A stretch of 64,000 bases of DNA from Desulforamulus hydrothermalis Lam5 = DSM 18033 (GTDB taxonomy: Bacteria > Bacillota > Desulfotomaculia > Desulfotomaculales > Desulfotomaculaceae). The notes beneath the pieces are model-generated. The model saw only the letters and a program-made list of their open reading frames with translations, made no database searches and was not told where the DNA came from. Location of the stretch: positions 49,887 through 113,886 of the forward strand of contig NZ_CAOS01000015.1 of assembly GCF_000315365.1 (NCBI RefSeq), written 5' to 3'. The stretch's first letter is position 1. The number at the start of each line of letters is the position of its first letter. Shown piece after piece: positions 1 through 10,061 of this stretch. A program made the position numbers and the translations under genes.

Positions 1-36
1 CAGCCTTTCAATTATTTCCTGTAGGTGATGGTTACT

Positions 37-4724: not shown

Positions 4725-5243
4725 CTACTTATTAAAAACCAGTACACGTCCTTCTTCTCTGAAGGCATATAGTCTTTTCGTTTCTGATTTTCTCTTAATA
4801 CTTTCCAACATATGTTCAATCAGTTCTTCTTGAACAAGCAAGTCTTCATCGTTTGGTCGGTCACTTTCTTCGGTTACCAGACTCTCCTGAACATAACCGC
4901 GGAACAGGTCCACCATGAGGGTGATTTCCCCCTGTACCAGTGTGTCCACATCTCTCTCAATTTCAATCATGGTAAGGGCATCTGATATTTCATAAGCCAG
5001 CTGAACAACCCGCGGCGACTTACCTTCCAGCACATGAAAAACCTCAATGCTGCTGATTATCTTTTCCTTTAACTGAACAATTTCATTTTCCTGCAATACC
5101 CCGGCATACATAAATGTAAATTTTAACAGGTTATGCTCCGGGTCAAAATTAATTCTGGCCACTTCGGGATACCTGATCAGGATGGAAATTAACAAGCTAA
5201 CACTGTTAGTTAAATCTTCCTTTCCTTTATAACGAAAATCCAA
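4725..5243 (-). CDS. Conserved-looking protein of unknown function between rny and ymdB
   Basis: The 172-residue product is not recognised. It is acidic (a run rich in Glu and Asp around residues 120-145), has no signal peptide or membrane segment, and looks like an alpha/beta cytosolic protein. The N-terminal part (about residues 10-115) alternates beta-like segments such as LLKFTFMYAGVL with helices; the C-terminal third is helical and charged. The start is a TTG at 5243 with AGGTGGTG upstream. It lies 17 nt before ymdB, so the two are almost certainly co-transcribed. A role near RNase Y or YmdB is possible from position alone. Confidence 0.75.
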   Translation of the reverse strand: MDFRYKGKEDLTNSVSLLISILIRYPEVARINFDPEHNLLKFTFMYAGVLQENEIVQLKEKIISSIEVFHVLEGKSPRVVQLAYEISDALTMIEIERDVDTLVQGEITLMVDLFRGYVQESLVTEESDRPNDEDLLVQEELIEHMLESIKRKSETKRLYAFREEGRVLVFNK

Positions 5244-5407: not shown

Positions 5408-6949
5408 CTATTTAGCATATTCTACATGTCTGGTTTCCCTTATAATAACTACTTTAATTTGCCCGGGATAATCCAGTTCATTTTCAATCTTCTTGGCAAT
5501 ATCCCTTACCAGACGAACGGCTGCCAGATCGTCTATCTTTTCCGGCTTAACCATGATGCGAATTTCTCGCCCCGCTTGAATGGCAAAGGACTTATCCACA
5601 CCGTCAAATTCCCCGGCTATTTCTTCCAGCTTTTGCAGTCGTTTTATATATGATTCCAGGGTTTCCCTTCTGGCTCCGGGACGGGCGGCAGATATAGCAT
5701 CGGCAGCTTGTACCAGTACAGCTTCAATAGTTTTAGGTTCTTCATCGCCGTGGTGGGCTGCAATGGCGTGAATGACTTCCGGACTTTCCTTATACTTTTG
5801 ACATAAATTTACACCAATAGCCACGTGAGGCCCTTCTACCTCATGATCCACTGCTTTGCCAATGTCGTGCAGCAAACCTGCACGCTTGGCCAGTTTCACA
5901 TCTATTCCCAGCTCGGCCGCCATCAGACCGGCCAGGTGGCAAACCTCAACGGAGTGCTTTAAAACATTTTGTCCATAACTGGTACGGAACTTTAATCTTC
6001 CCAGAAGTTTTACCAACTCGGGATGCAGTCCGTGTACACCTGTTTCAAAGGTTGCTTGTTCTCCGGCTTCCCGAATTTGTACTTCCACTTCTTTCTGGGC
6101 CTTTTCGACCATTTCTTCAATTCTGGCCGGGTGTATACGCCCGTCGGAAATCAACCTTTCCAGCGCTAAGCGGGCCACTTCCCTGCGAATGGGATCAAAC
6201 CCGGACAAAATAACAGCCTCAGGTGTATCATCAATGATTAAGTCGATACCGGTTAAGGTTTCAAAGGCTCTGATATTGCGACCTTCTCTGCCGATAATGC
6301 GACCTTTCATTTCGTCGTTAGGCAAAGGAATGACAGCCACCGTAGCTTCTGCTACATGATCAGCCGCACACCTTTGAATGGCTGAAGATATAATATCGCG
6401 AGCTCGTTTTTCAGCCTCCTCTTTGGCTCTGTTTTCGTATTCTTTAATCATAAGAGCCATATCGTGTTGAAGATCTTTTTCAATATCATTCAGCAAAATT
6501 TGACGTGCTTCTTCTGAAGAAAGCCCGGAAATCCTCTCCAGTTCAGCCATTTGGCGTTGCAAAATATGATTGAGTTCAGCTTTACTGTTCTCAATTTCAA
6601 CCTCTTTCCGACTAAGGGATTCTTCTTTCTTTTCAATAGAATCCATTTTACGGTCCAAGGTTTCTTCTTTCTGAAGAAGCCTTCTTTCCAATCGCTGCAA
6701 CTCATTTCTGCGGTCGCGAATCTCTTTTTCCATTTCGTTGCGCAGCTTGAGAACTTCTTCTTTAGCCATAACTATGGCTTCACGCTTTTTGCCTTCAGCA
6801 TCCTTTTCAGCTTCTTCTAAAATCTTTTTTGCCTGTACTTCAGCCGAGGCAATTTTCCCTTCGGCAATATTTTTCCGAATAAAGTACCCCGCTGCCAGGC
6901 TGCCTAAAGCAGTAACCAACATTACTAAAATCATTTGCATCGGCTCCAT
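5408..6949 (-). CDS. rny: Ribonuclease Y
   Basis: This 513-residue endoribonuclease starts mRNA decay at the membrane. One N-terminal membrane helix (about residues 5-25) is followed by a long charged coiled coil to about residue 200, a KH RNA-binding domain ([19 protein letters not shown]) and an HD domain with HSVEVC and [15 protein letters not shown]. Length and domain order are typical. The frame opens at a GTG (6958) that lies inside the SD; ATG at 6949, six bases after GGGAGGTG, is the likely start. It lies downstream of recA and a putative non-coding RNA whose terminator ends about 55 nt before it, so it probably needs its own promoter or read-through. Confidence 0.96.
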
Positions 6950-7003
6950 AGTTTTCACCTCCCTGCCTATTAATTATCAAAGTTTTAATACAAACTTAAG
7001 CAA

Positions 7004-7199
7004 TAAAAAAACCGAGTAACACTCGGTAGAAAAAGAACAGATATCTGGAAATGTCCATATCACGGGCAAAAAACCATCTTAGGATATTGGAACACAACAA
7101 CAACGCCAAAAACCCTAACAGAACAAGGATTGTGCCTTAAGGATATTGGATTTTATATATATATAAACTGTTGCCAGATATCAAATTCTATTTTCTCCC
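7004..7199 (-). ncRNA. Candidate structured non-coding RNA with its own promoter and terminator (6S-like fold)
   Basis: No credible reading frame exists in this 324-nt gap between recA and rny. A near-consensus promoter predicts a minus-strand transcript from about 7199 to the terminator at 7011-7027. The two ends can pair over a long stem: AGAAAA and GAA near the 5' end with UUC and UUUUCU near the 3' end, then a perfect GAUAUCUGG/CCAGAUAUC. Inside, UCCAAUAUC can pair with GAUAUGGA, CUUAAGG with CCUAAG, and CACAA with UUGUG, giving a rod with internal bulges. Size and rod shape resemble 6S RNA, but its sequence was not recognised, and no SRP RNA, tmRNA or RNase P landmark is present. A long rny leader or processed recA 3' region are alternatives. 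Confidence 0.6.
7011..7027 (-). terminator. Intrinsic terminator of the putative ncRNA
   Basis: Minus-strand ACCGAGT-GTT-ACTCGGT hairpin followed directly by a run of U residues (7010-7005). Confidence 0.85.
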
Positions 7200-7206
7200 A
7201 ACGATA

Positions 7207-7235
7207 ATTGTACATCTTTTTATTATCACTGTCAA
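7207..7235 (-). promoter_or_regulatory. Sigma-A promoter of the putative ncRNA
   Basis: Minus-strand TTGACA (7235-7230), 17-bp spacer, TACAAT (7212-7207). This is one of the best sigma-A matches in the window. The predicted start is the G at 7199. Confidence 0.8.
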
Positions 7236-7242
7236 GTTTGTC

Positions 7243-7267
7243 TGCTACCCCCTGGCAACCCGGGGTA
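7243..7267 (-). terminator. Weak hairpin just after recA
   Basis: Minus-strand TACCCC/GGGGTA stem with a 10-nt loop begins within 10 nt of the recA stop. It lacks a clear U-run, so it may only stabilise the 3' end of the recA mRNA. Confidence 0.35.
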
Positions 7268-7273
7268 ATAAAC

Positions 7274-8320
7274 CTAACCCATATCTTCCTCAGTCAAGTC
7301 ATCCGTCGGCCCGTTGACGGTAGGCAACTCAGCACCACCCATGGCTAATTTTTCCCGTACTTTACGTTCAATTTCCTGCGCCAGTTCCGGTCTTTCCTTT
7401 AACAGTTCTTTAACATTTTCCCTGCCCTGACCCAATCGCTCGTCACCGTAAGAATACCAGGCACCGCTCTTGCTGATAATTTTTAAGTCAGTGGCTACAT
7501 CCAGCAGGCTGCCTTCTTTGGAAATGCCGGTACCGTACATAATGTCAAATTCTGCCTGTTTAAAGGGCGGAGCTACCTTGTTTTTCACTATTTTCACTCT
7601 GGTGCGGCTGCCAATAATATCTGTGCCTTGTTTGATGTTTTCATGTTTGCGAACTTCCATACGAACCGAAGCATAAAACTTTAAAGCCCTGCCCCCGGTG
7701 GTTACTTCCGGCGAACCGTAAACAATGCCTACCTTCTCCCGAATCTGGTTAATAAAAATAACGGTGGTTTTCGATTTGCTTACAATTCCTGTCAGCTTTC
7801 TTAAGGCCTGGGACATTAACCTGGCCTGCAATCCTACATGGGCATCTCCCATTTCTCCTTCAATTTCAGCTCGGGGCACCAGGGCTGCCACCGAGTCCAC
7901 CACCACCACATCAATGGCGCCGCTGCGAACCAGTGCTTCGCAAATTTCCAGGGCTTGTTCGCCGGTATCCGGTTGGGAAACCAACAAGTTCTCAATGTCA
8001 ACACCCAGGCGCCGGGCATAAACCGGATCCAGAGCATGTTCAGCGTCAATAAAAGCCGCCATGCCGTTATTCCTCTGGGCCTCAGCAATTACATGCAGTG
8101 CTACGGTGGTTTTACCGGAAGATTCCGGGCCATAGATTTCCACCACGCGGCCCCGGGGCAAGCCCCCCACTCCCAGGGCGATGTCCAGAGATAAGGCCCC
8201 GGTGGAAATGGCTTCTACATTGAGCTTAGTGGCGTCCCCCAGCTTCATGATAGATCCTTTGCCAAAGTGTTTTTCAATATGAGCCAAGGCCAGTTCAAGG
8301 GCTTTTTGTTTATCGGACAT
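7274..8320 (-). CDS. recA: Recombinase RecA
   Basis: This 348-residue DNA-dependent ATPase forms filaments on single-stranded DNA, drives strand exchange and triggers LexA self-cleavage. Walker A GPESSGKT is at about residues 64-71, Walker [11 protein letters not shown] follows, and loop L2 is around [12 protein letters not shown]. The acidic C-terminal tail ([10 protein letters not shown]) is normal. The frame is open to 8338, but ATG at 8320 has GGAAGGAG seven bases upstream and gives the usual [12 protein letters not shown] start. It is transcribed alone or nearly so, from a sigma-A promoter with a LexA box directly downstream. Confidence 0.98.
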
Positions 8321-8462: not shown

Positions 8463-10061
8463 CTACCTTCTGGCCTTGGCAGGCTCTACAAACAGTCGTT
8501 TGCCTTTAAATTGCTGCTTGTGCAGGCAGCTGATGACACAGTTGGCCCATTCCTCAGGTACCTCTACAAAACTAAAGTTTTCATAAATATTAATGCTGCC
8601 GATTTGCTCCCCTGGCACGCCGGACTCCTCGGAAATCAGTTTGATAATTTCCGACGGGGAAGTTTTTTCTTTACGACCCAGGGTAAGAAATAATCTTACC
8701 ATGCCCGGTTTAGCACCGGTATTGCCAAAACTGGCGGTTTCAAGGCTTACTTCTTCCGCAGCCGGTTCCAGGTCAAGGGACAGTTTAAGAGCCGCTGCTG
8801 CAATATCCATAGGATCATACTCATCGATCAAGCTGTCAACAATAGAACGATAATAACCCAGCTTACCCTCTTCCATCAGGCGCAACAGGCGTTCTTTGAT
8901 ACCTTCTTTTTGGCGTTCCGCCACATCAGCCACACTGGGCAAGCGCTCCCGTTTGATTCTGGTCTTGGTGATATTTTCAATCAGGCGTAACTGCCGGTAC
9001 TCCCGGGGATTAATAATGGTAATAGCCACCCCTGATCTGCCCGCTCTGCCGGTACGGCCAATCCGGTGCACATAAAATTCCGGATCCTGCGGAATGTCAT
9101 AGTTAATCACATGAGATACTCCCTCAATGTCCAAGCCCCTGGCAGCAACGTCAGTGGCCACCAACAATTCCACTTCGCCTGACCGGAACTGCCTCATAAC
9201 ATTGTTTCTTTGTTGCTGGCTGAGATCACCATGCAGGGCCGCAGCTGTATAACCCCTGGCCTGCAAACCCGCCACCAGCTCATCCACGCCCCGCTTTGTA
9301 CGGCAGAAAACAATCCCCTGGGCAATATCCGTGGTGTCCAACAGACGGCACAGAGCTTCTAATTTATGTTTTTCCGGCACTTCATAGTAGACCTGGTCAA
9401 TTTGCGGGGCCGTCAGGGTGCTTTTGCTCACCGTAACGTATTGGGGATTTTTCATATATTGCTGGGCCAAGCGAACAATTTCAGCGGGCATGGTAGCTGA
9501 GAACAACAGCGTCTGACGCTCAGCCGGAATGTGTTTTAATATCTCTTCTATATCTTCAATGAATCCCATATCCAGCATTTCATCCGCTTCGTCCAGTACC
9601 ACCAGGCGCACCTGGTCAGTCTTTAAGGTATGGCGCCGGAGGTGATCCAGCAGGCGGCCCGGTGTCCCTACCACAACTTGCACACCCTGCCGCAGCGAGC
9701 GGATCTGTCGTTCAATGGATTGCCCGCCATAGATCGGCAGCACTTTGACACGGCAAAAACGACCGATTTTGCTGATTTCCTCCGCCACTTGAATGGCTAA
9801 TTCCCTGGTAGGGGTAATGATCAGGGATTGTAAAACTTTTTTGCGAAAATCTATTTGTTCCAATAAAGGTATACTGAAGGCAGCCGTTTTGCCGGTACCC
9901 GTTTGTGCCTGACCAATCACATCATGGCCCGCTAAAACATGAGGAATTGCCAGCTGCTGTATGGGTGTGGGCTCTTCAAACCCCATTTCAACAAGCCCGT
10001 CCACAATCTTCTTATTAATAACCAGTTCACCGAATAATTTTGTTTCTTTTCTTTGGTTCAT
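8463..10061 (-). CDS. DEAD-box ATP-dependent RNA helicase with a C-terminal DbpA-type RNA-binding domain
   Basis: This 532-residue RNA helicase shows all core motifs: Q-motif PTPIQ, AQTGTGKT (about 52-59), PTRELA, TPGRLLDHL, LDEADEML, SAT, then domain 2 with VATDVAARGLDIEGV and HRIGRTGRAG. After a helical linker, residues about 455-532 (SPSEIIKLISEESGVPGEQIGSI...) look like a DbpA/CsdA-type RNA-recognition domain. It would unwind structured RNA in ribosome assembly or decay. CshA lacks this kind of tail, so a DeaD/DbpA-like role is more likely; the exact orthologue is open. The start is ATG at 10061 with AGAAGGA upstream. cinA ends 23 nt upstream, so the two genes may share a transcript. Confidence 0.93.
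   Translation of the reverse strand: MNQRKETKLFGELVINKKIVDGLVEMGFEEPTPIQQLAIPHVLAGHDVIGQAQTGTGKTAAFSIPLLEQIDFRKKVLQSLIITPTRELAIQVAEEISKIGRFCRVKVLPIYGGQSIERQIRSLRQGVQVVVGTPGRLLDHLRRHTLKTDQVRLVVLDEADEMLDMGFIEDIEEILKHIPAERQTLLFSATMPAEIVRLAQQYMKNPQYVTVSKSTLTAPQIDQVYYEVPEKHKLEALCRLLDTTDIAQGIVFCRTKRGVDELVAGLQARGYTAAALHGDLSQQQRNNVMRQFRSGEVELLVATDVAARGLDIEGVSHVINYDIPQDPEFYVHRIGRTGRAGRSGVAITIINPREYRQLRLIENITKTRIKRERLPSVADVAERQKEGIKERLLRLMEEGKLGYYRSIVDSLIDEYDPMDIAAAALKLSLDLEPAAEEVSLETASFGNTGAKPGMVRLFLTLGRKEKTSPSEIIKLISEESGVPGEQIGSINIYENFSFVEVPEEWANCVISCLHKQQFKGKRLFVEPAKARR

Follow-up and report, generated by a model that had tools for sequence, protein, structure and literature searches.

Organization of the recA-rny locus

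The window, by which we mean the whole 64,000-nt stretch of Desulforamulus hydrothermalis DNA analyzed here, carries on its minus strand, between recA and rny, a promoter, a rod-shaped RNA of ~198 nt, and a strong intrinsic terminator (Table 1). Both the TTGACA-17-TACAAT promoter and the hairpin with a U-run, which a preliminary description had read from the sequence, are present, and each is the best of its own kind within positions 6940-7290, where shuffled sequences average 0.1 terminators. The transcription start of the RNA is estimated at 7203-7199, and the end of the U-run is separated from the Shine-Dalgarno sequence of rny (6963-6956) by ~40 nt. The CCGAGTNNNACTCGGTTTTT of the terminator has a single occurrence in its own genome. 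Judging from the sequence, the promoter appears to drive the leader and, on the present reading, rny.

Immediately ahead of recA, and two genes away from rny, lies the gene of a DEAD-box RNA helicase of the CshA/DeaD/DbpA type (8463-10061, minus strand), which contains a DbpA RNA-binding domain and scores slightly below the CshA equivalog cut-off; hence, genes of RNA degradation are clustered here. A reading frame of 172 amino acids between rny and ymdB (4725-5243, minus strand) has no match in Pfam or NCBIfam.

Table 1. Features of the recA-rny locus, with positions in the window.
Feature	Position	Strand	Evidence
Promoter, sigma-A type, TTGACA-17-TACAAT	7207..7235	-	11 of 12 consensus positions
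Leader RNA of rny, ~198 nt, rod	7004..7203	-	Match to model R1, 158.9 bits; covariation; folding z -2.8
Closing stem P1, 5' arm, with the invariant UUGG-NAGAAAAUAGAAU at the 5' end	7174..7201	-	Columns 4-18 nearly invariant in 89 sequences; staged folding
AU-rich hairpin GUUUAUAUAUAUAUAAAAUCC just inside P1 (consensus GGGUUUU-AUAUAGAU-AAAAUCC)	7148..7168	-	Two-sided changes in helices 5-6
Closing stem P1, 3' arm CCAGAUAUCUGUUCUUUUUCU, adjoining the terminator	7028..7048	-	Inner P1: 6 of 6 pairs with two-sided changes; 85.7% of cells paired
Terminator: hairpin ACCGAGUGUUACUCGGU (7027-7011) and U-run U7 (7010-7004)	7004..7027	-	
rny (ribonuclease Y), ATG start at 6949	5408..6949	-	TIGR03319, 798.5 bits
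recA, upstream of the leader	7274-8320	-	TIGR02012 (RecA)

Fold of the RNA

The leader RNA folds better than its dinucleotide shuffles, with a z of -2.8 and only one of 200 shuffles equally good. The minimum-energy fold contains the pairing of the RNA ends described previously, namely the closing stem GAUAUCUGG/CCAGAUAUC together with the flanking AGAAAA...UUUUCU, and the two copies of UCCAAUAUCCU are likewise present. The inner pairings that had been thought to continue the rod, CUUAAGG/CCUAAG and CACAA/UUGUG, are absent from this fold, and the region differs between families. Across 89 relatives, P1 and the next hairpin (GGUUUU...AAAAUCC), in which the first UCCAAUA lies, show both conservation and covariation, and the interior of the rod consists of this AU-rich hairpin and a variable part. 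The motif TATATA/ATAGAT is enriched in the leaders, in line with a conserved AU-rich hairpin.

Conservation and covariation in the order

We found the leader by blastn in all eight congeners searched and as fragments across the order (Desulfotomaculales). The covariance model R1 has matches in 89 of the 113 genomes of the order, representing 40 of 55 genera. Among the carriers with a name are Desulforamulus, Pelotomaculum, Desulfofundulus, Desulfoscipio, Desulfotruncus, Sporotomaculum, and Thermincola. There is one copy per genome, except for one fragmented genome with two partial matches on two contigs. In one genome of the order lacking an R1 match (L139), the promoter, rod, and terminator are plain by eye; hence, some at least of the R1 misses are divergent and not absent.

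RNAalifold on a MAFFT alignment recovered the terminator alone, with the stem arms misaligned, and a structure-guided model was then used. In the resulting 89-sequence alignment, 85.1% of the cells pair, a count that leans toward the structure because the alignment was made by fitting to the model, and the covariation score is 0.212, compared with 0.122 for shuffled sequences and ~0.05 for slid partners. Variants of the closing stem, such as GAUACUAC/GUAGUAUC, GAUAUCUGG/CCAGAUAUC, and UUGGCAUC/GAUGUCAA, are legible by eye and free of any model. The opening 15 nt of the leader, GGNAGAAAAUAGAAU, are almost invariant. Conservation and covariation in relatives, which had been named among the checks on this RNA, were both found: the RNA is kept in 89 genomes, and the pairs of its closing stem covary strongly.

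Four contigs titled Deltaproteobacteria, Nitrospiraceae, Actinobacteria, and Armatimonadetes (L079, L088, L121, and L131) show the leader pattern of the Bacillota and are probably mislabelled metagenome bins. In three further sequences (L071, L072, and L075), the leader is only ~90 nt long and the terminator loop CCGAGUAGAAACUCGG resembles the reverse complement of the usual CCGAGUUUCUACUCGG.

Linkage to rny in the order and across the phylum

All 89 R1 matches in the order lie directly upstream of rny on the same strand, which strongly supports the earlier suggestion of a new RNA tied to RNase Y. The distance from the 3' end of the RNA to the rny start codon has a median of 41 nt and a minimum of 9 nt, and it is at most 100 nt in 87 of the 89. 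A link to recA was also considered and rejected: in families f6 and f7, a NifU-like gene takes the place of recA upstream, while the leader and rny are retained, so the partner is rny and not recA. As in an attenuator-type leader, the promoter, leader, and terminator are co-directional and stand immediately upstream of one gene across species, and rny appears to have no other promoter, since a scan limited to the promoter consensus finds no promoter-like site downstream of the terminator on the minus strand (6940-7004). In most genomes, moreover, the gap between the terminator and rny is too short to leave room for a second promoter. As far as the sequence goes, it is hardly possible for rny to be transcribed from its own locus other than via the leader terminator; transcription from recA could be an alternative route.

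We surveyed the regions upstream of rny in 80 genomes of the phylum outside the R1 matches, one of which (L139) belongs to the order. Of the 80, 79 have a promoter of the form TTGAC-17..19-TAnnnT no more than 390 nt ahead of rny, compared with three of 80 equal-length upstream control stretches. Within the same distance, a CCGRG...CYCGG terminator with a T-run is present in 48 of the 80 against one in the controls, and the CCGRG..CYCGG terminator is present in 47 of 48 sequences of the order; several phylum leaders without it have different terminators at the same place. The leaders range from 24 to 390 nt in length across the phylum, with the promoter and terminator as the constant parts, and in the longer ones, the pairing of the first with the last 50 nt exceeds that of shuffles (p<=0.05) in 28 of the 35 outgroup leaders and 41 of the 43 from the order. 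Five members (L205, L206, L212, L213, and L216) have the same promoter without a terminator, 25-61 nt from the rny start. Because it drives rny directly in these members, the promoter appears to be rny's own, and the "small RNA" is accordingly most likely the terminated leader. The RNA was previously called self-contained, which is not supported and is probably wrong, as the promoter appears to belong to rny and the RNA to be its terminated 5' leader.

Outside the order, R1 itself gives eight weak matches, all of which lie between recA and rny, a position that validates them independently. A search with a class-level model returned the same order again and nothing further. It appears that an ancient leader, unrecognized until now, fronts rny in most of the Bacillota sampled.

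Other arrangements upstream of rny were seen in individual lineages. Four members of one phylum lineage (L175, L186, L218, and L159) have another terminator, AGCCAGGGGCA...CUGGCU. An upstream UGCCCCUGG is complementary to the loop and the 5' strand of this terminator; inspected by eye, the loop varies in concert with its partner, and the pairing is possibly a lineage-specific antiterminator. In L145 and L155, an upstream AGUAGCCC is able to pair with GGGCUACU/GGGCUGCU inside the terminator, and the alternative fold is clear by eye.

6S RNA and other Rfam families

The preliminary description offered, as one of two readings, a divergent 6S RNA, with which the leader has in common its size of ~200 nt, its rod shape, and a promoter and terminator of its own. 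This identity is rejected. RF00013 has no match in the window at the gathering score (46.4 bits) and none on 6950-7290 when the threshold is relaxed to E=5, whereas two RF00013 genes above the cut-off, with 99.6 and 60.6 bits, lie on other contigs of the same genome and serve as a positive control. Unlike 6S RNA, the leader is also obligately linked to rny. A 6S RNA is a rod whose large central bubble mimics an open promoter; the leader, too, is a rod, and its interior holds the AU-rich hairpin and the variable part. Considering these points and the 49 further relatives without an Rfam match, tRNAs aside, we give the 6S reading next to no chance. The two genuine 6S genes are situated at C12:106631-106818 and C3:458326-458502; B. 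subtilis likewise has two 6S RNA genes.

The proposed search with 6S and all bacterial models was run and gave no match at the gathering score and no credible one at E<=5. Except for tRNAs, known Rfam families are absent from the window and from the 49 relatives, which were drawn from the order and the phylum, and rne5 (RF00040) has no match in the window.

A proposed attenuation switch

We consider it quite likely that the RNA is no free-standing sRNA but forms the 5' leader of rny transcripts and that it sets the expression of RNase Y by attenuation. The case for its identity as a cis-leader is strong, and autoregulation of rny via attenuation is probable; a switch in which the 5' end and the terminator compete for the CCG is a more tentative proposal. 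Transcription from the TTGACA/TACAAT promoter would yield the ~198-nt rod-shaped leader, after which transcription would either be halted by the built-in terminator, with a short stable RNA as its product, or read through into rny, whose ribosome-binding site lies ~40 nt downstream, and this choice would determine the amount of RNase Y. In the nascent RNA, the 5' (U)UGG would first pair with the CCG(A) in the 5' strand of the terminator, extending P1, and the terminator could form only by displacing this pairing. Stabilization of the rod, by whatever signal, would favor read-through, and a cut or opening of the rod would favor termination. If RNase Y cuts or binds the AU-rich leader, less RNase Y would be made, closing a feedback loop.

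In the window RNA, the energy of the terminator-less state is -46.0 kcal/mol and that of the terminated state -50.2 kcal/mol, a difference of 4.2 kcal/mol. When this RNA is folded in stages, the 5' UUGG pairs with the terminator CCGA and extends P1 until the last bases of the terminator emerge, and in nearly all the order members examined, the CC is already paired with P~1 while the terminator is still incomplete. Position 3 of the leader, before the GG, is a pyrimidine in 89 of 89 sequences and is able to pair with the next G of the terminator. Against the switch, P1 and the terminator overlap by only 3-4 bp, so the terminator could displace the pairing of the 5' end easily.

Compared with shuffles, direct complementarity between the 5' end and the terminator is null within the order (median z of 0.01) and weak outside it (median z of -0.48, with 19% at p<=5%). 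In truncated transcripts, the pairing of CCGAG shows no excess, with 0.66 against 0.65 in shuffled leaders on average. A simple antiterminator between the 5' end and the terminator loop, suggested to the eye by AGAAACU/AGUUUCU in several outgroup leaders, was rejected on the same grounds, being null in the order and weak outside.

In a bolder version, which we find possible but doubtful, a phylum-wide and hitherto undescribed class of leaders would sense the activity of RNase Y or the load of RNA decay and attenuate rny, with the 5' terminus as the antiterminator strand. If so, a cut in the rod would switch rny off, and much of the Bacillota would possess a built-in meter of RNA decay.

Alternative explanations

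The main rival for the identity of the RNA is a free-standing trans-acting sRNA, 6S-like or other, with constitutive termination and a gene that stays ahead of rny by chance, while rny is transcribed from elsewhere. The strong conserved promoter and terminator, the stable closed rod, the invariant 5' sequence, and a size and shape like those of 6S would suit such an RNA, and in RNA-seq, it would be indistinguishable from a terminated leader. We nevertheless regard it as improbable, since it faces the adjacency to rny in 89 of 89 cases at a median of 41 nt and would leave rny without a promoter. In members lacking the terminator, moreover, the identical promoter drives rny directly. The variation in length across the phylum, from 24 to 390 nt with the promoter and terminator kept, also fits a leader better.

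For the mechanism, the main rival is termination at a fixed ratio combined with decay, that is, an insulating terminator followed by an ordinary rny 5' UTR, in which a fixed low share of transcripts reads through and nothing is sensed; the rod would protect the RNA end or feed the decay of the mRNA by RNase Y/J1, as in B. subtilis. The chance-level antiterminator complementarity in the order agrees with this, as does the autoregulation in B. subtilis, which acts via cleavage of the 5' UTR and ORF (PMC10303841). The conserved 15 nt at the 5' end and the covarying apical hairpin, however, exceed the needs of a fixed-ratio terminator, and we hold this explanation, too, to have a small probability. 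Taking the self-repression of B. subtilis RNase Y together with the evidence from the locus, we consider feedback control of rny by attenuation most likely.

Comparison with known systems

RNase Y initiates most mRNA decay in the Bacillota, and to our knowledge, its own control has been detailed only for B. subtilis, as cleavage of the mRNA. If the attenuation reading is true, a major decay enzyme is controlled at the level of transcription elongation in most Bacillota, and the leader offers a model, comprising a promoter, a rod, a terminator, and an alternative pairing, that is testable in any tractable species of the Clostridium type. It would also urge caution, since conserved "small RNAs" may be terminated leaders.

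In enterobacteria, the rne 5' UTR (RF00040, rne5) is a structured leader of the main decay-initiating endonuclease and mediates feedback control; we know of no intrinsic terminator ahead of that gene. The rny leader is unrelated to rne5 in sequence and structure and belongs to a different enzyme. A contrast with the rne 5' UTR has also been drawn in the B. subtilis study (PMC10303841). The rny mRNA of B. subtilis is transcribed from its own sigma-A promoter and begins with a 5' UTR of 164 nt, and experiments show that RNase Y represses itself partly by cutting this 5' UTR, most strongly within its initial 50 nt (PMC10303841). The study describes mRNA decay by RNase Y/J1 and not attenuation, and it does not mention a terminator (PMC10303841). 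The B. subtilis 5' UTR thus resembles our leader in preceding the same gene and having its own sigma-A promoter, but as published, it is described without a terminator, a rod, or conservation across species (PMC10303841).

The terminator-type leaders of the Bacillota, such as attenuators, T-boxes, and riboswitches, share with the rny leader the order of promoter, structured leader, intrinsic terminator, short gap, and gene, as well as, in our proposal, a leader helix that competes with the terminator. In contrast to them, the rny leader bears no known aptamer or T-box signature (no Rfam match), and no more than 3-4 bp of the terminator are shared with its alternative pairing. The open-access literature searched contains no description of the rny leader, which falls short of proving that none exists. 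Rfam 15 likewise lacks a family of this kind, so that the leader would form a new one. A terminator-bearing leader is a known kind of device, and the rny leader family is, as far as could be checked, a new example of it.
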